Positions 682 to 35,807 of a DNA stretch of 64,000 nucleotides are shown here, in pieces. Origin of the DNA: Pseudomonadota bacterium. GTDB taxonomy: Bacteria > Pseudomonadota > Alphaproteobacteria > UBA2136 > JASBTF01. Location: contig JASBTF010000002.1 of the NCBI GenBank assembly GCA_030148545.1, forward strand, positions 175,218 through 239,217. Reading direction: 5' to 3'. Position 1 is the stretch's first letter; each line of letters begins with the position of its first letter. Below the pieces are notes generated by a model. That model had not been told where the DNA came from, searched no databases, and saw only the letters and a list, made by a program, of their open reading frames with translations. The position numbers and the translations under genes were made by a program.

Positions 682-730
682 AAATTCCCCAGCGGGTGAT
701 TTTTTCAATTTAAACAAGGGGGGTGCGGGT

Positions 731-825
731 CGCCATCCCAAGGTCGCAGCGCGACTTGGTTGGCGGAGGTCCAGGATACATCCTGGTGCCAAGCGGCGGC
801 TTTGCCGACCGCGAGAGCAATCTAA
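731..825 (-). repeat. Three-hairpin intergenic repeat, copy 1 (tRNA-Leu tail)
   Basis: This is a full copy of a dispersed element seen at least five times in the window. Read on the minus strand it runs: a short ATTAGATTGCTC lead; hairpin 1 GCGG-TCGGCAAAGCCG-CCGC; hairpin 2 CCAGGAT-gt-ATCCTGG; the constant GACCTCCGCCAACC; hairpin 3 based on CCAAG/CTTGG and GTCGC/GCGAC; and the constant end GGGATGGCG. The hairpin arms differ from those of the other copies but remain complementary. It lies directly after a 3' copy of tRNA-Leu. Function is unknown. Confidence 0.85.
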
Positions 826-927
826 TGGTGCCCAGAAGAGGACTGATGGGGTGTGTGCTGCACCCCACCCTACGGGCGTGCCTGTGGCACGTCGCGCTCC
901 GGCATGCTGCCTCGCGCCGAACCTCCA
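824..927 (-). repeat. Split copy of the tRNA-Leu(CAG) 3' end
   Basis: Bases 824-844 are identical to tRNA-Leu(CAG) positions 993-1013 (CCA end, acceptor and part of the T-arm). Bases 918-927 are identical to positions 1014-1023, the next ten bases of the same tRNA. The two pieces are therefore one 31-nt tRNA copy interrupted by 73 bp (845-917) inside the T-loop, between TTCG and AGTCC on the tRNA strand. The copy lies beyond the tRNA terminator. A hairpin CGAACC-tccatc-GGTTCG spans the T-arm piece. The same organisation is seen at two other tRNA loci here. Confidence 0.8.
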
Positions 928-961
928 TCGGTTCGATGGTTAAATCATAAACATCAGGTTA

Positions 962-985
962 CAAAAAAATCCCCTAAAGGGGACA
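962..985 (-). terminator. Intrinsic terminator of tRNA-Leu(CAG)
   Basis: Minus-strand stem TCCCC-ttta-GGGGA followed by seven T residues, starting about ten bases after the tRNA CCA end. A classical rho-independent terminator. Confidence 0.85.
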
Positions 986-994
986 TTTTGTAAA

Positions 995-1081
995 TGGTGC
1001 CCAGAAGAGGACTCGAACCTCCACTCCCTTGCGAGAACTAGCACCTGAAGCTAGCGCGTCTACCAATTCCGCCACCTGGGC
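995..1081 (-). tRNA. tRNA-Leu (anticodon CAG)
   Basis: An 87-nt cloverleaf with a long variable arm typical of tRNA-Leu. The acceptor stem GCCCAGG pairs with CCTGGGC-type 3' bases, the T-arm carries GGTTCGAGTCC, and CCA is encoded. The anticodon stem CTAGC/GCTAG holds the loop TTCAGGT, giving anticodon CAG (reads CUG). Its 3' end is copied, in two pieces, about 150 bp downstream. Confidence 0.97.
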
Positions 1082-1221
1082 AAGTGCGAACCTAGCGCTT
1101 GTAATGCGCGGGCCGGTTCTTGTCAAGCTCACAATGTGCTTGATTGTATGCGAGAGTTGTTTTACTCCTATATAGGAATCGAATCGCCTTTTATTATTTC
1201 ACACAGCCCTAGGAGGCAGTT

Positions 1222-1860
1222 ATGAGTGAAAAACCTTCTTCAACAACGGCAAGTAGTGTCGGCCTTTCTAAAGAAGAGCAGGAAGAAGCTTTTGAAGCAA
1301 TGCTACTGCCCGAAGATTTTCGTAGTTTACTTATTCCTTATACGCGAGCTTTTCATAATGCATCGCTTATGAATGGTATTATGAGTAGCGATGATGTTAC
1401 AGAGTGCACAACGGCAGCTAATATTAATGTTTTTATTGGTTGTTTGCTTGAAAAAACTGATAGTTGTTCTGAGTATATAGCATATTCCTCTTCCGGAAAC
1501 CTAGTTGATGGTGTGTTTATGTTTAGCTCATATCAATTGGCTTTTCACTACGGTGATGTGGTCGTAAAACATACTTTGGGCGCTAATGGATATTCTCTTG
1601 TAATTCTAGTTGAACAGCCGGATAGAGATGGTTCTGATGACCTAGATATCTTTAATGCCCACATTTTTATGCAGGGGCATAGCTCGGTTGATGAAGATTT
1701 AGAGGTTATTGAAAAAATTCTTGAACAATATCCAGTTCTTCTCCAGGTGTTTCGTGCCCATTTGGAGGTTGCTTTGGCTCAGCCTATTGCTACAAAGACA
1801 TCTCGTGACAAAGTTAATGCTGTTTATCAGGCGTTGTTTGTTACTCCAACTTATAATTAA
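1222..1860 (+). CDS. Orphan 212-residue protein
   Basis: No family recognised. The start follows a strong Shine-Dalgarno sequence AGGAGG six bases before ATG. The protein is acidic and soluble, with no signal peptide or membrane segment. The N-terminal 40 residues are Ser/Glu rich, followed by a mixed alpha/beta body with hydrophobic strands such as YSLVILVE and a helical C-terminus. It is followed after a GC-rich hairpin by a second orphan gene of nearly equal length in the same direction, so the two probably share a transcript. Cysteines are relatively frequent. It is more AT-rich than the neighbouring housekeeping genes. Confidence 0.75.
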   Translation: MSEKPSSTTASSVGLSKEEQEEAFEAMLLPEDFRSLLIPYTRAFHNASLMNGIMSSDDVTECTTAANINVFIGCLLEKTDSCSEYIAYSSSGNLVDGVFMFSSYQLAFHYGDVVVKHTLGANGYSLVILVEQPDRDGSDDLDIFNAHIFMQGHSSVDEDLEVIEKILEQYPVLLQVFRAHLEVALAQPIATKTSRDKVNAVYQALFVTPTYN

Positions 1861-1865
1861 CCTTC

Positions 1866-1888
1866 CCCCGGCGCCACTGGCGCCGGGG
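1866..1888 (+). other. Strong GC hairpin between two orphan genes
   Basis: CCCCGGCGCC-act-GGCGCCGGGG, a perfect 10-bp stem, seven bases after the upstream stop codon. It lacks a clear T-tract on the plus strand (tcccgctttacttt follows). It may be a weak terminator, or an RNA-stabilising or attenuating hairpin that sets the ratio of the two genes. Confidence 0.6.
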
Positions 1889-1919
1889 TCCCGCTTTACT
1901 TTTAACAATGGAGGCGCCA

Positions 1920-2549
1920 ATGCCGTCTGGAAAGAGCTCGGCTGAAGATTCTTCAGATTTAGGCCCAAATGTTTTTGTGTTAAGGCCGTGGCAGCGTTTT
2001 CACTCAAAGCTGCATGAACCTATGAGGCGATTGCTGTTTACGCTGTGTCAATACGGTGCGCTGCTTAAGCAAGATGGTGAAGTGCCCTATCAGCAGCAGC
2101 CTGCACATGTCGCTCGCTGGGTTGAAGCTGCTCGTCCTGAAATGTTTGAACTGCTCAGTATTGACTCTGATGCAGGTGCAGAGCAGGAAGACATTGAAGG
2201 AGGTAAGTGCTTTACAATGTACAGCGCCACTTTCCATTACACAGGGTTCAGTGTGATGCACCGTGAAGATTTGGAATCTTCTATTATGGAAATCATCACT
2301 GCGACAGCTGATGAGGATACCTTGGCGTGGTTTAAGTATTATCGTGATGTAGAGTCGATGAATGAAGTTGGTCAGCATCCTGATTTTGGCCGTATGCTCG
2401 AAAGCTCTCCTGAAGCTGTTAAGCTGTTGCAACCACACGTATTGACGCATTCTCACCTTATTGGCTGTCAAGACCACCGGGACCTGGTGGCTACGGCGTT
2501 TAAGCTGCGGCCGAATGATATTGAGCCAAACCAGCCACCATACTTTTAG
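1920..2549 (+). CDS. Orphan 209-residue protein
   Basis: No family recognised. Two in-frame ATGs exist at 1908 and 1920. The sequence TGGAGG at 1909-1914 overlaps the first and sits five bases before the second, so translation most likely starts at 1920. The protein is soluble and mostly helical, with motifs such as PWQRFHSKLHEPMRRLL near the N-terminus and a Pro/Asn-rich tail ending QPPYF. It is about the same length as the preceding gene, but I cannot show homology between them. A good intrinsic terminator follows. Confidence 0.75.
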   Translation: MPSGKSSAEDSSDLGPNVFVLRPWQRFHSKLHEPMRRLLFTLCQYGALLKQDGEVPYQQQPAHVARWVEAARPEMFELLSIDSDAGAEQEDIEGGKCFTMYSATFHYTGFSVMHREDLESSIMEIITATADEDTLAWFKYYRDVESMNEVGQHPDFGRMLESSPEAVKLLQPHVLTHSHLIGCQDHRDLVATAFKLRPNDIEPNQPPYF

Positions 2550-2551
2550 CG

Positions 2552-2586
2552 AAAAAGCCCCCACGCACTGCATGGGGGCTTTTCTT
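2552..2586 (+). terminator. Intrinsic terminator
   Basis: AAAAAGCCCCC-acgcactgcat-GGGGGCTTTTC just after the stop codon at 2549. It ends the orphan two-gene unit. Confidence 0.85.
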
Positions 2587-2621
2587 TTGCGCTGAGGCAG
2601 CACTTGGGCTATGGTCGGCCC

Positions 2622-3248
2622 ATGCAAAAAGTGAATATTACCGTCAGCCAAAATGACCTACCCGCTGGCGTAGAGTTTGAGAGTTTAGTCGCCGTAGATA
2701 CCGAAACCCTGGGCCTTAACCCATTGCGTGACCGCTTATGTGTGTGCCAGCTGGGCGATGGCAAGGGTAACGCATGGCTGGTTCAGTTCGATGGTGAGGA
2801 TTACAGCGCCCCTAATTTACGCAAAGTGCTGGAGGATGACACGCTCACTAAAATGTTCCATTACGCCCGTTTTGATATTGCTGTGCTTAAGCATTACATG
2901 GGCGTGCAAGTAAACCCAATTTACTGCACCAAAATTGCCAGCAAGCTCACCCGCACCTATACCGACCGCCATGGTTTGAAGGCTCTGGTAGAAGAAATTG
3001 TTGGTGTGAATTTGGATAAAGGTCAGCAAACCTCTGATTGGTCGGCGCCTGTGCTGAGTGAAGCACAAAAACACTACGCCGCAAGCGATGTTTTATACCT
3101 ACACGAAATGAAAGAATGGCTAGATGAACGCCTGCGTGTGCTAGGCCGTGTGGAAATGTCCCAGCGCTGCTTCGACTTCCTTCCAACCCGTGCCGAGCTC
3201 GACTTGAAGGGGTGGGAAAACAGCGATATTTTCGCCCATAATTCCTAA
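2622..3248 (+). CDS. Ribonuclease D family 3'-5' exonuclease (short form)
   Basis: A compact DEDDy exonuclease of about 208 residues, the single-domain form common in Alphaproteobacteria, which lacks the HRDC domains of E. coli RNase D. It should trim RNA 3' ends. The three exonuclease motifs are visible: VAVDTETLG (Exo I), FHYARFDIAVLK (Exo II) and YAASDVLYLHEM (Exo III with the catalytic Tyr/Asp). I chose ATG 2622 because family members begin about ten residues before the DLP motif. An in-frame TTG at 2604 has a better-spaced GAGG and remains possible. It precedes kdsD and the lpt genes in the same direction. Confidence 0.9.
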   Translation: MQKVNITVSQNDLPAGVEFESLVAVDTETLGLNPLRDRLCVCQLGDGKGNAWLVQFDGEDYSAPNLRKVLEDDTLTKMFHYARFDIAVLKHYMGVQVNPIYCTKIASKLTRTYTDRHGLKALVEEIVGVNLDKGQQTSDWSAPVLSEAQKHYAASDVLYLHEMKEWLDERLRVLGRVEMSQRCFDFLPTRAELDLKGWENSDIFAHNS

Positions 3249-3273
3249 ATATTTAACATAATAATGGTGCTTT

Positions 3274-4260
3274 ATGAGCAATGTTAAGCCTATTTCTAGC
3301 AATCAAACCGATACATTAGAGCACGGCCAAAATGCGCTACGCCATGCGGCGGATGTGCTCAATACCCTTGCCGATAAGTTGGATGATAGCTTTATTCAGG
3401 CGGTAGATGCTCTTTACAATTGCCAAGGCCGCGTGGTGGTAAGTGGTATGGGTAAGTCCGGCCATATTGGGAACAAAATTGCCGCAACGCTGGCCAGTAC
3501 TGGCACACCAGCGTTTTTTGTGCACCCGGGGGAGGCCAGCCATGGCGACCTAGGCATGGTCACCTCAGAAGATGTGGTGATTGCCATTAGCCATAGTGGT
3601 GGCACTAAAGAGTTATCGGACATGATTGCGCACTGTGCACGCCTTAACGTGGTGCTTATTGCCATTACTGGTAAAGCCGAAAGTGACCTTGGTCGTGCGG
3701 CAACACTGGTGCTTAATAACCATGTTACTAAGGAATCAGACCCTATTAATATGGCGCCAACCAATTCTACCACAGCAAGTTTGGCGTTGGGTGATGCTTT
3801 GGCTGTAGCGCTCATGCAGCGTCGTGGGTTCCAGCCGCAAGATTTTGCAGCATTCCACCCCGGTGGTAAGTTGGGTGCAAACCTTAAAACTGTAGCTGAG
3901 CTGATGATTACTGGCAGCGCCATGCCACTCATTAGCGATGAAGCACGCATGGACGATGCCTTGCTGCTGATGAGTGATAAAAAACTCGGGTGCGTAGGTG
4001 TAACCGATACTGCCGGTAAGTTAGTAGGTATGGTGACCGATGGTGACTTGCGCCGCCATATGTCTGGCCATTTGCTGCAACAACCTGTTACTGCGGTGAT
4101 GACTGAAAATCCAATTACCACCAATACTGAGCAGCTTGCACCAGCGGCATTAGCGCTGCTGCAGGATAAGCAGATTACCGCTGTGTTCGTTGTGGATGAC
4201 CAGCAGCAGCCAGTAGGTTTGTTGCACATTCATCACCTCTTGCAGGCTGGTGTTGTATAA
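3274..4260 (+). CDS. kdsD: D-arabinose 5-phosphate isomerase KdsD
   Basis: Interconverts D-ribulose 5-phosphate and D-arabinose 5-phosphate, the first step to Kdo for lipopolysaccharide. The 328 residues hold an N-terminal SIS sugar-isomerase domain (about 40-180) with GMGKSGHIGNK, HPGEASHGDLG and SHSGGTKE, followed by the family motif AFHPGGKLG, and two CBS domains (about 200-325) with MVTDGDLRRH. Length and order match KdsD/KpsF. It lies 25 bp after the ribonuclease D gene and 13 bp before lptC, consistent with one envelope-synthesis operon. Confidence 0.95.
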   Translation: MSNVKPISSNQTDTLEHGQNALRHAADVLNTLADKLDDSFIQAVDALYNCQGRVVVSGMGKSGHIGNKIAATLASTGTPAFFVHPGEASHGDLGMVTSEDVVIAISHSGGTKELSDMIAHCARLNVVLIAITGKAESDLGRAATLVLNNHVTKESDPINMAPTNSTTASLALGDALAVALMQRRGFQPQDFAAFHPGGKLGANLKTVAELMITGSAMPLISDEARMDDALLLMSDKKLGCVGVTDTAGKLVGMVTDGDLRRHMSGHLLQQPVTAVMTENPITTNTEQLAPAALALLQDKQITAVFVVDDQQQPVGLLHIHHLLQAGVV

Positions 4261-31617: not shown

Positions 31618-31758
31618 CGCCATCCCTAGTTGGCGGAGGTCCAAGAAACTTCTTAGTGCCAGCTTTAGGATGATGGGGTACTAGGGGGTTCGCAGCCCGC
31701 TAGGGCTGGCACCCCTAGGAGCAAGGGGCGGCTTTGCCGACCCCGCAGCGAATCTAAA
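31618..31758 (-). repeat. Three-hairpin intergenic repeat, copy 3 (tRNA-Arg tail, with insertion)
   Basis: Minus-strand order: lead ATTTAGATTCGCTGC, hairpin 1 GGGG-TCGGCAAAGCCG-CCCC, about 60 bp of extra palindromic DNA (31664-31726, itself with CTAGGGG and CCCTAG pieces), then GGCACTAAGAAG-TTTCTTGG (hairpin 2 CTAAGAA/TTCTTGG), the constant GGACCTCCGCCAAC, and the end GGGATGGCG. Hairpin 3 is missing. It follows a split copy of tRNA-Arg(TCT), mirroring copy 1. Confidence 0.8.
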
Positions 31759-31761
31759 TCA

Positions 31762-31856
31762 CGCCCGCTCGGCAGGACTGACGCTCGCCATGCTGCCTCG
31801 CGCCCTACGGGCTGCTACGCCGTCCCAAAGTGACGTGCTATCACTTTGGCGAACCT
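31762..31856 (-). repeat. Split copy of the tRNA-Arg(TCT) 3' end
   Basis: 31762-31779 matches the tRNA-Arg(TCT) 3' end at 16 of 18 bases. CGAACCT at 31850-31856 supplies the next seven tRNA bases. The 70 bp between (31780-31849) interrupt the copy in the T-loop, as at the Leu and Arg(ACG) loci. CGAACC-tata-GGTTCG forms a perfect hairpin at the T-arm piece. The insert contains the hairpin CCAAAGTGA/TCACTTTGG and the motifs CGCGAGGCAGCATG and CCCGTAGGG shared with the Leu insert. Confidence 0.65.
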
Positions 31857-31885
31857 ATAGGTTCGATCCTACACGGAACGAACAA

Positions 31886-31928
31886 ATGAATTAACCGAAG
31901 CAAGCTTCACTTACTTCGGTTAATTCAT
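31886..31928 (-). terminator. Original tRNA-Arg(TCT) terminator, now 3.8 kb from its gene
   Basis: A 15-bp stem ATGAATTAACCGAAG / CTTCGGTTAATTCAT directly after the displaced tRNA 3' fragment. The arms are AT-rich without a long T-tract, but position matches the terminators after the other tRNAs. Confidence 0.6.
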
Positions 31929-31985
31929 GGCCCGCCCGGCAGGACTCGAACCTGCAACCGTCTGCTTAGAAGGCGCATGTTCTAT
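31928..31985 (-). repeat. Displaced tRNA-Arg(TCT) 3' fragment (attachment-site copy)
   Basis: 31928-31974 is identical to 35731-35777; the next 11 bases match at 8 positions. It lacks the D-arm and 5' acceptor strand, so it is not a functional tRNA. Read as the far attachment site of the island. Confidence 0.85.
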
Positions 31986-32092
31986 ACATTTAATATCGAC
32001 GCAATATCCAATTAATACCAAGCTCAGCTTAACCTTTAAGTTTTTATATGGTTTTTAATACGTCCCTTTTTGGAGGTGTTTTTAAAATAAAT

Positions 32093-32106
32093 GGTGACCG
32101 TTTGGT
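32093..32106 (+). repeat. GGTGACCGTTTGGT repeat, left island end
   Basis: A 14-bp sequence identical to that at 35642-35655 near the right end, in the same orientation and about 120 bp from the core copy. Probably a recombinase arm-type site. The 32000-32240 stretch otherwise holds no convincing gene; a 68-codon plus-strand frame there has no ribosome site. Confidence 0.6.
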
Positions 32107-32243
32107 ATAAACCAGCTAGTATCATGAGAGAAAAATCTAATATAAAAATACAATTTACTCTTACTTTAATAGCAAAAACTCAGTGCTCTCAGGCTATCAT
32201 TTCTTTACAAATATTGTGCTTTTTGGTGCTTTATCAGGTTTTT

Positions 32244-33662
32244 TTATTGGTCAACTTTGAACCTTTTGCGGATATTGTTCAAAAATACATAGATTAGAAA
32301 GCTAGCAATTAGACTCAGGATAACAGAGAGCATAGAAAGCCATGGATTTATAGGCTCTAAATCAGTAAATAGGGTTAACCTAAGTGGGCCAAGCATTGTT
32401 TTAAAGGTATAAATTGAGGTATATGTTTTATCATTAAGCTGAGGTTCTTCGAAAAGACCTCGTTGATGCCAACCACTATCAAAATTAGACAGCGCAGAAA
32501 ACATGATTGCTCCAAGTAAACAAAGCAGTAGGAAGGGTTGTAGCAGATAAGTTCCAAATCCTGTTACTCTATCAATTAGGAATGATAGCCAATATTCAGG
32601 GTTAGTTTTGCTCATTACTTTCCGCAAACACCGCTGTTCTAAGGAGTGGAGATAGAGTATATCCCTTGTGGGCATGGTTCTCTCACTAATCTCTCGTAAA
32701 ACCTTCATATGGCCAGCGCTGGAACTGTCAGTTTCTTTGATAGAGTAATTGCTCATATGAAAATGATCAGGCAGTGCCAGGGGTTGATAGAAAATGGGGG
32801 GGTAATTGAATTCTACACCATCGATTAGAAAGCTTAACTCATAATTCCCTTGAAATTCAGCTGTCCTTATAATCCTAGCATAGCCTAACTCAAATTTACG
32901 TATACCTTTGTGCCCTAAATCATTTCTAGTTAATGAATTTACACTCAACGAGCCTATTTCTGCTTTTACATCAACACCGTAACTGTAAATTGATAACATT
33001 TCACTGTCTGTATTGATTTCCATATATTTAGCATGGTTTATTTCAATAAATGAGCTTGTACATTTTTCCAAATCTAGCTTTATATATGACCAGTGACAGG
33101 AATCTCTCATTCTAAAATTTTCTGCACCCGCCTTAATTTTTAACTGTGAGCCAAAGCAGTCATGGATACTTAGATTTTCAAATGAACCCTCGATAGTATA
33201 GTCTAATGTACCCCTTATATTGGGTTGAAATTCACACGAACTAAAATCAGCAGTACTGCATACTCCGAATCTAATAGGGAATTGAAAAACCTTATGGTTA
33301 ACCTCCAGTGATGTTTGAAAGTCTACAATGTTTTTGAAGTCATAGTTGAGATCGAGTGCCTTAATAGCACTAGCATTCCTTGCATCGAAGCTCTGTATTA
33401 TGAAATCTACTTCTGAAACATAGGTCTCGAAAACCTTTTTTGCTATATCGGGGGAGTCAATATGGTGGAGGTTTCCACCAATACTTTTTATTGAATTGGG
33501 AGGTGTTCTCTTGTTAGCAATATCCTCTAAAACTAAGCGTAGCAAAACCCTGAACAGGGTTTTAACCTCGGAATCTAGCTGTTTAAGAGTAAAACTGGTA
33601 TGCTTAATATTATCAAATAGGGTTTTTATTTCTTGTTTACCAAGATACTGGCCAATAATCAT
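32244..33662 (-). CDS. Island membrane protein with beta-helix-like domain
   Basis: 472 residues; exact family not recognised. The N-terminal 100 residues are helical. Residues of about 110-270 form short regular strands with alternating hydrophobics (SIHDCFGSQLKIKAGAENFRMRD style), suggesting a right-handed beta-helix like pentapeptide or bactofilin-type folds. A helical stretch (LREISERTMPTRDILYLHSLEQRCLRKV) then leads to two C-terminal membrane helices (LQPFLLLCLLGAIMFSAL and LSMLSVILSLIASFLIYVFL). The layout resembles membrane-anchored beta-helix proteins common in genomic islands. It overlaps the cyclase gene by four bases and is markedly AT-rich. Confidence 0.7.
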   Translation of the reverse strand: MIIGQYLGKQEIKTLFDNIKHTSFTLKQLDSEVKTLFRVLLRLVLEDIANKRTPPNSIKSIGGNLHHIDSPDIAKKVFETYVSEVDFIIQSFDARNASAIKALDLNYDFKNIVDFQTSLEVNHKVFQFPIRFGVCSTADFSSCEFQPNIRGTLDYTIEGSFENLSIHDCFGSQLKIKAGAENFRMRDSCHWSYIKLDLEKCTSSFIEINHAKYMEINTDSEMLSIYSYGVDVKAEIGSLSVNSLTRNDLGHKGIRKFELGYARIIRTAEFQGNYELSFLIDGVEFNYPPIFYQPLALPDHFHMSNYSIKETDSSSAGHMKVLREISERTMPTRDILYLHSLEQRCLRKVMSKTNPEYWLSFLIDRVTGFGTYLLQPFLLLCLLGAIMFSALSNFDSGWHQRGLFEEPQLNDKTYTSIYTFKTMLGPLRLTLFTDLEPINPWLSMLSVILSLIASFLIYVFLNNIRKRFKVDQ

Positions 33663-35401
33663 CGTCCATCACCTGATTTATCCTCATACATGCGTTCATC
33701 AGCCCCACGTAGTAGCTCATCAACAGCTTTACCATCTTCTGGATAAGTAGCAATACCAATACTAGCAGTAACCTCTAATGGCTCTTTAATGCCTTCAAGC
33801 TCCATCGGCTTAGCAACAAGTTCACGTATTTCAGCTGCGGTTTCTTCAGCGGTCGATTTATCAATACCATAAATCATCAGCACAAATTCATCTCCACCAA
33901 TACGGGTAACAATATCACCTTTATCAATATATTCCTCCAACCGATTTCCAACCGTTTGCAGCACACGGTCACCAGCGTCATGACCATAGGTGTCATTGAT
34001 AGGCTTAAACTTATCCAAATCTACAAACAGCAAGCTGAATATTTTACGTTCGCCAATGGTGCGGCGAATCTTACCTTTAAGGTAGCGGCGGTTTCTTAAC
34101 CCAGTTAATGCATCTGTATTAGCCACATTCTGGCGGTAGTTACGTTGTAGGGTACGCATCACTTCAGGTTTAACAGTAAGCTCGCCAGTAGCATCACTAT
34201 CAATGGCGGTGATTACTTCCTGTGGAACGCCAAGCAGGTCAGCCACCTTTGGTACATAGCGTTGAAATGTTTCCATAGTTTCTTCCACAATGTCGTGGCA
34301 GTCCATGCTGTCTTCTAAAATATCTTCATAGCGGCGGCGTTTGGTCTCTTCACTTAGCGCCCGAACACGTTGGGTGTCTTTAGCCTCATCCGCCACCTTA
34401 TTCATATATTCGTACAAATCAAAGTGGCCACCCATTTCACGCTTAATACGTATATAAACGGTGAGCAATGCACCACCAGTAATCAGCACACCAGCCAGTA
34501 AGTCAATTTTGGATAGTTGGCGAATTTCCAGTAAACCGAGTCCTGCGAATGCTGATTCCCAAAAAATAACTGCTATGGGTGTAAGCGCTGCTACGGCAAA
34601 GTAGTTTTCCGATTTTATAAGGCGAATACTGCTGAATTCTAAGTAACGAATAGGAGCAACAAACAATACGCCCAACACAAAGCCACCATAAACTGTACCG
34701 CGGTGGGTAAAGTCCGATAGTTCAGGTAAGAATGCAATAGGTGCATCTGAAAGTGTTTGTAAGTAGGCAATAAGAACGGCCACAACCGTCAAAAATATAC
34801 TAGTTACTGCCGTAACAATACCAGCCATGCAGCAACGTGAATGAAAACCAATATGGGCATTATTCTCAGGGTGGAACTCAGCCACAAAAATACGAATTGC
34901 GCCAATTAATGAAATAATAGCAATACTAGTATAAACAAATGCTTTTTGCTCAGTCGCTATATTAGTGAGGATAAGCAACACACCCAGCATAATCATTAGT
35001 GCACTTAGTGCTCTATCCCACCCTTGTTTGCGGTTAAGGAAAAACCAGCCAATCAAAAACCCAAGTAGCAGGTTAATACGGTGTAGCAGCGTTACTTCAG
35101 TTGAGGTGATTTGCTGAAACAGAAAGGTGTTAATAATAGCAATAGTGATAAGGAAAATACCAAATACCCACGTATGCGGTCGCCGCAAAACGTCACCTGC
35201 GACTTGGCCTTTTTGCCCTACAATTAATAAAACTAGTGCTGCACCCATGAACGCTGAGCAACCCCATACCATTGGATCAACTTCCCACCGCACAGCGACT
35301 AAACGCTGGGCAATATAGCCTAAACCCAAAAAGAAGAAGATTTGTAGAAACGCCTGAAACCAGCCAAGCAGTCCAGGCTGAAAGTTTTTAAGAGAAGGCA
35401 T
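33659..35401 (-). CDS. Diguanylate cyclase with EamA/DMT-transporter-like membrane domain
   Basis: 580 residues. The C-terminal 170 form a GGDEF domain with ALTGLRNRRYL, FVDLDKFKPINDTYGHDAGD and the exact motif GGDEF, so it should make cyclic-di-GMP. The inhibitory RxxD site is not intact; the corresponding residues read DKGD. The first 330 residues contain about ten hydrophobic helices in two halves. Each half ends with EamA-like patterns (VTLLHRINLLLGFLIGWFFL...ALMIMLGVLLIL; AALTPIAVIFWE...LLAGVLITGGALL). A helical linker connects both parts. It is the middle gene of the island operon. A transporter-like sensor controlling a cyclase is the natural reading. Confidence 0.88.
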   Translation of the reverse strand: MPSLKNFQPGLLGWFQAFLQIFFFLGLGYIAQRLVAVRWEVDPMVWGCSAFMGAALVLLIVGQKGQVAGDVLRRPHTWVFGIFLITIAIINTFLFQQITSTEVTLLHRINLLLGFLIGWFFLNRKQGWDRALSALMIMLGVLLILTNIATEQKAFVYTSIAIISLIGAIRIFVAEFHPENNAHIGFHSRCCMAGIVTAVTSIFLTVVAVLIAYLQTLSDAPIAFLPELSDFTHRGTVYGGFVLGVLFVAPIRYLEFSSIRLIKSENYFAVAALTPIAVIFWESAFAGLGLLEIRQLSKIDLLAGVLITGGALLTVYIRIKREMGGHFDLYEYMNKVADEAKDTQRVRALSEETKRRRYEDILEDSMDCHDIVEETMETFQRYVPKVADLLGVPQEVITAIDSDATGELTVKPEVMRTLQRNYRQNVANTDALTGLRNRRYLKGKIRRTIGERKIFSLLFVDLDKFKPINDTYGHDAGDRVLQTVGNRLEEYIDKGDIVTRIGGDEFVLMIYGIDKSTAEETAAEIRELVAKPMELEGIKEPLEVTASIGIATYPEDGKAVDELLRGADERMYEDKSGDGR

Positions 35402-35603
35402 TATTTACCTCCACCACAATTACTAATCCTAGAATACAAAAACTAACGAGTATAGTTATGACAAGCCACATTTTACTATTATAGACTTGGCTCTGTTCTT
35501 CAAGGTAGTCAGCTTTGCGGCGTATATAATTTTTGACATTAGCATCAGTAATATTCTGATCACTTCTTTTTGTTGCGTATGATGGCTTACCGTTTTTTCT
35601 CAC
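35388..35603 (-). CDS. Small single-helix membrane protein, first gene of island operon
   Basis: 71 residues. The basic N-terminal half contains a charged helix (NVKNYIRRKADYLEEQSQVY) and is followed by one membrane helix (MWLVITILVSFCILGLVIVV). The stop overlaps the cyclase start by 14 bases, so the genes are translationally coupled. A small partner or regulator of the cyclase is possible. Confidence 0.65.
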   Translation of the reverse strand: MRKNGKPSYATKRSDQNITDANVKNYIRRKADYLEEQSQVYNSKMWLVITILVSFCILGLVIVVEVNNAFS

Positions 35604-35641
35604 GCGGTGAGTGTAGAGGGTTACGAAAAAGTAATCAAATC

Positions 35642-35664
35642 GGTGACCGTTTGGTGACCGTTTT
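35642..35664 (+). repeat. GGTGACCGTTT double repeat, right island end
   Basis: GGTGACCGTTT occurs twice in an 11-bp period (35642-35664). The first 14 bases equal the left-end copy at 32093-32106. It lies 67 bp from the tRNA. The 38 bases between the small membrane gene start (35603) and this repeat probably hold the operon promoter. Confidence 0.6.
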
Positions 35665-35730
35665 GTATTTTAGTATATTTGCGCATGGTATGATTTTATA
35701 GTGATATGGCTATCATAAAGACTTTTGCAG

Positions 35731-35807
35731 TGGCCCGCCCGGCAGGACTCGAACCTGCAACCGTCTGCTTAGAAGGCAGATGCTCTATCCGGTTGAGCTA
35801 CGGGCGG
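35731..35807 (-). tRNA. tRNA-Arg (anticodon TCT)
   Basis: A 77-nt cloverleaf: acceptor CCGCCCG/CGGGCGG, anticodon stem TCTGC/GCAGA around loop CTTCTAA giving TCT, T-arm AGGTTCGAGTCCT, encoded CCA. It serves as the attachment site of the adjacent island, so the 3' half now present is probably supplied by the element. Confidence 0.97.

Follow-up and report, generated by a model that had tools for sequence, protein, structure and literature searches.

The DNA between a tRNA-Arg(TCT) gene and a second, exact copy of its 3' part is likely a small integrative element that a tyrosine recombinase put into the tRNA gene. The element comprises an attachment (att) region and an operon of three genes, none of which encodes an integrase. 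It was found in a 64,000-nucleotide stretch of an alphaproteobacterial contig (assembly GCA_030148545.1), the whole of which is referred to below as the window. The features that define the insertion are as follows.

35731-35807, minus strand: tRNA-Arg(TCT), intact, the integration target (ARAGORN; Rfam tRNA E=1.8e-14)
35731-35777: proximal att core, 47 bp, inside tRNA-Arg(TCT)
31928-31974: distal att core, identical over 47 bp to the 3' part of tRNA-Arg(TCT); the similarity extends to 31985
31886-31928, minus strand: host hairpin with a 19-bp stem, -26.1 kcal/mol, and a weak T tail

The direct repeat is exact at 47/47 positions, with 55/58 identities over 58 bp and a spacing of 3,803 bp. The two cores enclose 3,756 bp, and a circle including one core copy has 3,803 bp. 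The repeat corresponds to tRNA positions 31-77, and its limits are the 3' end of the tRNA and the 5' strand of the anticodon stem, which is the usual crossover zone of tyrosine recombinases. A preliminary description of this DNA had reported the duplicate of the tRNA 3' half, its end in the anticodon stem, and about 3.75 kb enclosed by it; all of these were found, and the exact cores and the anticodon-stem limit support its proposal of a tyrosine-recombinase island at a tRNA gene with clean att sites.

Directly beyond the distal copy is a perfect 19-bp hairpin stem, which that description had overlooked. When the host flanks are joined (35807-35778 to 31974 onward), an identical 77-nt tRNA is obtained with the hairpin at +1. 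The element-side DNA that is now 3' of the tRNA folds with only -3.1 kcal/mol, versus -26.1 for the host hairpin. A short G+C-rich hairpin with a T run stands behind three of the four other tRNAs in the window, and the hairpin at 31886-31928 is probably the tRNA terminator, despite its weak T tail. Because the junction restores both tRNA and hairpin and the fold on the element side is weaker, the host 3' flank is the DNA to the left of the distal copy, displaced 3.8 kb by the insertion. In an integration of the usual kind, a tyrosine integrase would join the circular form to tRNA-Arg(TCT), and positions 31-77 of the present gene would be element-derived. No constraint keeps the distal copy from drifting, and since it is still identical the insertion is probably not old. 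An old duplication unrelated to mobility had been considered at the outset, with the three genes conserved at this spot in all relatives and the repeat decayed; instead, the distal copy is undecayed and the genes were not found at this tRNA in relatives. None of 15 same-order genomes, which are the nearest comparison genomes and share neither genus nor family with this one, has the three genes at tRNA-Arg(TCT) in this form, and the tRNA-Arg(TCT) flanks of these 15 genomes are not syntenic with the window. Searched against the whole genome, the island matched only two places besides itself (~75 to 80 bp, 75 to 77% identity), one of them the window's tRNA-Arg(ACG) gene. The tRNA-Arg(TCT) end thus occurs nowhere else in the assembled genome. 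Left of the island, at 31620-31880 of the window, is G+C-rich non-coding DNA that contains tRNA-like fragments such as GGTTCGATCC; short matches to it of 81 to 90% elsewhere in the genome may represent a repeat family.

A second set of features that had been overlooked lies in the non-coding ends of the element.

31975-32243: non-coding left end of the element, 269 bp
35604-35730: non-coding right end, between tRNA and operon, with the two arm-type sites 5' of the first gene
35642-35663, plus strand: two tandem copies of GGTGACCGTTT (starts 35642 and 35653), at distances of 78 and 89 bp to the core, candidate arm-type sites for an integrase
32093-32103, plus strand: a third GGTGACCGTTT, oriented like the tandem pair and placed across the core from it once the element is circular

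The left end agrees in size with the roughly 250 bp of non-coding DNA given earlier. In the circular form, GGTGACCGTTT stands at -89, -78, and +165 as counted from the core start, with all three copies pointing the same way, and this is the layout of the arm-type sites of lambda- and P4-like integrases. There are four copies of GGTGACCGTTT in the 1.14-Mb assembly, three of them near the element ends. The recombinase would, by this layout, be of the arm-binding (P4/lambda-like) type and bind GGTGACCGTTT. Taken together, the junction that restores tRNA and hairpin, the paired arm-like repeats, and the different state of the site in relatives establish that this is a real site-specific insertion.

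The motif was also sought in the viral sequences of IMG/VR as the tandem GGTGACC(N4)GGTGACC (80 loci), with the reversed pattern as a control (80 loci). The tandem lay at most 500 bp from an integrase at 6/80 loci (control, 0/80) and near a tRNA T-arm-like motif at 8/80 (control, 1/80), and GGTGACCGTTTGGTGACC had four exact matches. In one viral contig (L138), a copy of a tRNA 3' end is followed by the exact tandem and this by an Arm-DNA-bind_3 integrase; in another (L136) the tandem is directly behind the integrase gene, and in a third (L135) it is ~95 bp past a tRNA end. GGTGACC tandems with an 11-bp period were seen beside diverse tyrosine integrases and tRNA-like sequence at L135 to L138, L154, L156, L167, L179, L191, and L215, and the tandem in viral contigs looks like a widespread arm-type motif; a literature search found no published description of GGTGACC in this role. 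The integrases near the motif are diverse, with Arm-DNA-bind_3 in only some, and in L135 and L138 the orientation of the motif with respect to the core is opposite to that in the island. The tandem therefore appears to be good evidence for an att region and weaker evidence for the exact type of integrase. Among 385 genomes of the class, the exact arm tandem was present in this genome alone. Several P4-type integrases beside tRNAs in the same order have G-rich tandems of 10 to 13 bp between tRNA and gene, and those of L010, L457, and L459, for example, have sequences other than GGTGACCGTTT.

The remainder of the element is occupied by three genes on one strand, with overlaps of 14 and 4 nt.

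35388-35603, minus strand: gene 1, first in the operon, a 71-aa basic protein with one predicted membrane helix
33659-35401, minus strand: gene 2, a 580-aa diguanylate cyclase with an EamA-type membrane N-terminus and a GGDEF domain (Pfam GGDEF 2.2e-41, EamA 7.5e-08)
32244-33662, minus strand: gene 3, a 472-aa orphan

The preliminary description had called these genes a signalling operon. This holds for gene 2 alone, which has an intact GGDEF motif and would bring with it a membrane-bound diguanylate cyclase and c-di-GMP signalling; the other two genes are without known function. Searches of Pfam, PADLOC, PHROGs, PDB sequences, and IMG/VR with the orphan found nothing, and it has no relative in 96 related genomes and 397 other genomes of a phylum sample. 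A low-confidence single-sequence structure model (pLDDT 46) predicts a helical N-terminus, a beta-rich middle, and hydrophobic C-terminal helices. A composition different from that of the surroundings had also been claimed, and we found this to be the case: at 36.7% GC, the orphan gene is below all 48 host genes of at least 150 aa in the window (mean 48.8%, standard deviation 3.0), and only two of these 48 are lower than the GGDEF gene (43.4%). The three genes have no Pfam transfer domain, and no conjugation or mobilisation genes were found, nor were integrase, replication, or packaging-interference genes of the phage satellite/PICI kind. Comparison with phages and plasmids gave only matches of GGDEF-domain or tRNA-end size, and a search for viral relatives through an N-terminal alignment had no sufficiently conserved stretch to use.

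The integrase gene of such an element would usually start at the right end, upstream of the first gene. As previously noted, the element contains no integrase gene, and no remnant of one was found in any frame. The assembled genome has three tyrosine recombinases, of which two are Xer-like by length (~316 to 319 aa) and the third belongs to an island at tRNA-Phe, and it has no P4-type integrase or Arm-DNA-bind_3 domain; the assembly is 86% complete, and a helper integrase may sit in the missing part. Arm-DNA-bind_3 (P4-type) integrases occur in 13/17 same-order relatives. The larger, integrase-bearing element at the same site for which the preliminary description had suggested looking did not turn up, as there is no second element at tRNA-Arg(TCT) in the assembled genome and no integrase beside this tRNA in the relatives' DNA examined. 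The tRNA-Phe island (L133:1270-9695; G000:C1 about 497270-505695) is 8.4 kb long with a 33-bp direct repeat and is probably an anti-phage defence island. It encodes an integrase (DUF6538 plus Phage_integrase), a DRT2-like reverse transcriptase, and a GajA/AriA-like ATPase, and 490-aa and 199-aa genes beside the integrase have no match in Pfam or PADLOC.

Relatives of the EamA part of gene 2 are present in 9/18 genomes of the order, with up to seven per genome, and most of the 17 full-length EamA-GGDEF members compared have a small basic membrane open reading frame directly upstream. Genes 1 and 2 thus make up a cassette native to the order, in which EamA-GGDEF proteins form an order-wide paralogous family. 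Two members are arranged tail-to-tail with a P4-type integrase: in OFTM141 (L010, 9905-12773) the integrase has an Arm-DNA-bind_3 domain and the pair is at tRNA-Leu(TAA), and in G008 (L445, same order, 698-3766) the EamA-GGDEF gene is at 698-2344 and the integrase at 2429-3766. The integrase-cyclase pair therefore recurs in two different bacteria. Both loci resemble the island in having the same cargo family with a preceding basic membrane segment and differ from it in the presence of an integrase, in their arm repeats, and in the branches of the gene family to which they belong. In a tree, the window protein groups on a long branch with same-order copies that have no integrase (support 94/93), and the integrase-linked copies are not its nearest relatives. 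A tRNA lies within ~2 kb at about 8/18 EamA-GGDEF loci, compared with perhaps 3 expected if 45 tRNAs per genome are assumed, an association that was noticed post hoc and is only suggestive.

Two further loci of this family were observed. In G003 (L285:7604-11730), two EamA-GGDEF genes are beside tRNA-Gln(TTG); P4-type integrases adjoin this tRNA in several genomes of the order (L448, L453, L454, L458, and L447), and no P4-type integrase domain was found in G003. In G002 (UBA2136; L008:9277-15113), a segment beside tRNA-Arg(TCT) has a repeat at its borders (97% over 59 bp, 89% over 93 bp) and carries umuC and genes for an EamA-GGDEF protein, a UmuD-like protein, and an unknown protein of 240 aa, with a stray umuC start outside the repeat. 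This segment was considered as a second integrase-less island and rejected, as the repeat comprises only 9 nt of the tRNA together with downstream DNA and lies beside the duplicated umuC start.

How the element came to be without an integrase may be explained in two ways: the gene may have been deleted from a larger parent element, or the function may have been supplied by a helper and never carried. Of a derivative stranded by integrase loss and a passenger mobilised in trans, the former is somewhat more likely, and it is slightly favoured because related cargo is found together with an integrase elsewhere and neither a helper nor another copy of the element is known. The element is probably now stranded, since nothing cognate is present in the assembled genome; it would move only if an element with matching specificity arrived, or by recA-dependent recombination between the cores.

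A trans-mobilised satellite is still viable because the att region and the operon look intact. We regard it as possible, if somewhat doubtful, that the element is a present-day hitcher that never had an integrase and is moved by larger elements with tRNA-Arg(TCT) specificity and GGTGACC arms. The compact, translationally coupled operon without a pseudogene, the many P4-type integrases circulating in the order, and the EamA-GGDEF gene of UBA2136, which lies between repeats at tRNA-Arg(TCT) without an integrase, would all fit such a hitcher. However, the arm tandem search of the 385 class genomes revealed no second copy, the 472-aa gene is without relatives in any set searched, none of the integrases observed in relatives could be placed at tRNA-Arg(TCT), and the assembled genome (86% complete) has no helper. 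It is rather unlikely that the element is an obligate integrase-less satellite, in which a c-di-GMP cassette spreads among the tRNA genes of the order by borrowing P4-type integrases. The cassette would then consist of the small basic membrane protein and the EamA-GGDEF protein and would keep only att cores and arm sites. This possibility is raised by the occurrence of EamA-GGDEF genes beside tRNAs or P4 integrases in the window and at L008, L010, L445, and L285.

A duplication of the tRNA end around native genes by slippage or unequal crossing over, with no site-specific recombination, is very improbable. The EamA-GGDEF proteins are indeed a native paralogous family, and the UBA2136 segment, in which repeats enclose a related gene, has a duplicated umuC start and resembles an ordinary duplication; however, such an event would leave unexplained the arm-like repeats on both sides, the exact coincidence of the repeat limits with tRNA 3' end and anticodon stem, the displaced hairpin, the low GC content, and the lack of a homologous left flank. 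Least probable of all is mobilisation by the integrase of the tRNA-Phe island, the assembly's sole tyrosine recombinase outside the Xer type, which has a different target (the repeat takes in the final 26 nt of tRNA-Phe and does not include the anticodon stem), DUF6538 in place of Arm-DNA-bind_3, island end repeats (CTGTTACAAAA) unlike GGTGACCGTTT, and no GGTGACCGTTT nearby except a one-mismatch match inside the gene.

We return to the reading of a small element inserted by a tyrosine recombinase, which can be compared with several known systems. Tyrosine-integrase tRNA islands are reportedly located by Islander through the integrase gene, which the island here does not have. It does have the other features of such islands, namely, an intact tRNA and a duplicate of the tRNA 3' part at the far end. 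The islands mapped by Islander likewise restore their target and leave a displaced fragment to mark the far end (PMC4383910). Tycheposons of Prochlorococcus, which are 4 to 200 kb long, resemble the island in having cargo at tRNA genes of streamlined marine bacteria and are recognised by a tyrosine recombinase gene (PMC10872708); the island is without such a gene. A cis-mobilizable element (CIME) is a decay product of an integrative and conjugative or integrative and mobilizable element (ICE or IME), usually in tandem with another element, that keeps attL and attR and lacks integration and transfer genes (PMC5704250). The island shares these features, with att cores at both ends and apparent arm-like repeats on both sides, but neither ICE/IME ancestry nor a tandem partner, which is usual and not required for a CIME, was found for it. 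We call it a CIME-like (att-only), integrase-less tRNA island rather than a CIME because neither a partner element nor such ancestry was found. Islands without an integration module at ssrA in Dehalococcoides, which were proposed to be cis-mobilizable elements, are likewise small, with an RNA-gene 3' copy at the border, cargo only, and no recombinase (PMC3146451). They differ in involving a serine recombinase, a tmRNA target, and many tandem islands (PMC3146451), whereas the island here is single and its arms are tyrosine-recombinase-like.

Methods that begin with the integrase miss integrase-less islands. Two marks that do not depend on an integrase were available here, the displaced tRNA hairpin and the paired arm-type repeats. 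The family of membrane diguanylate cyclases to which gene 2 belongs is tied to tRNA-targeting integrases, and this would make c-di-GMP genes a cargo that is exchanged within a streamlined order.
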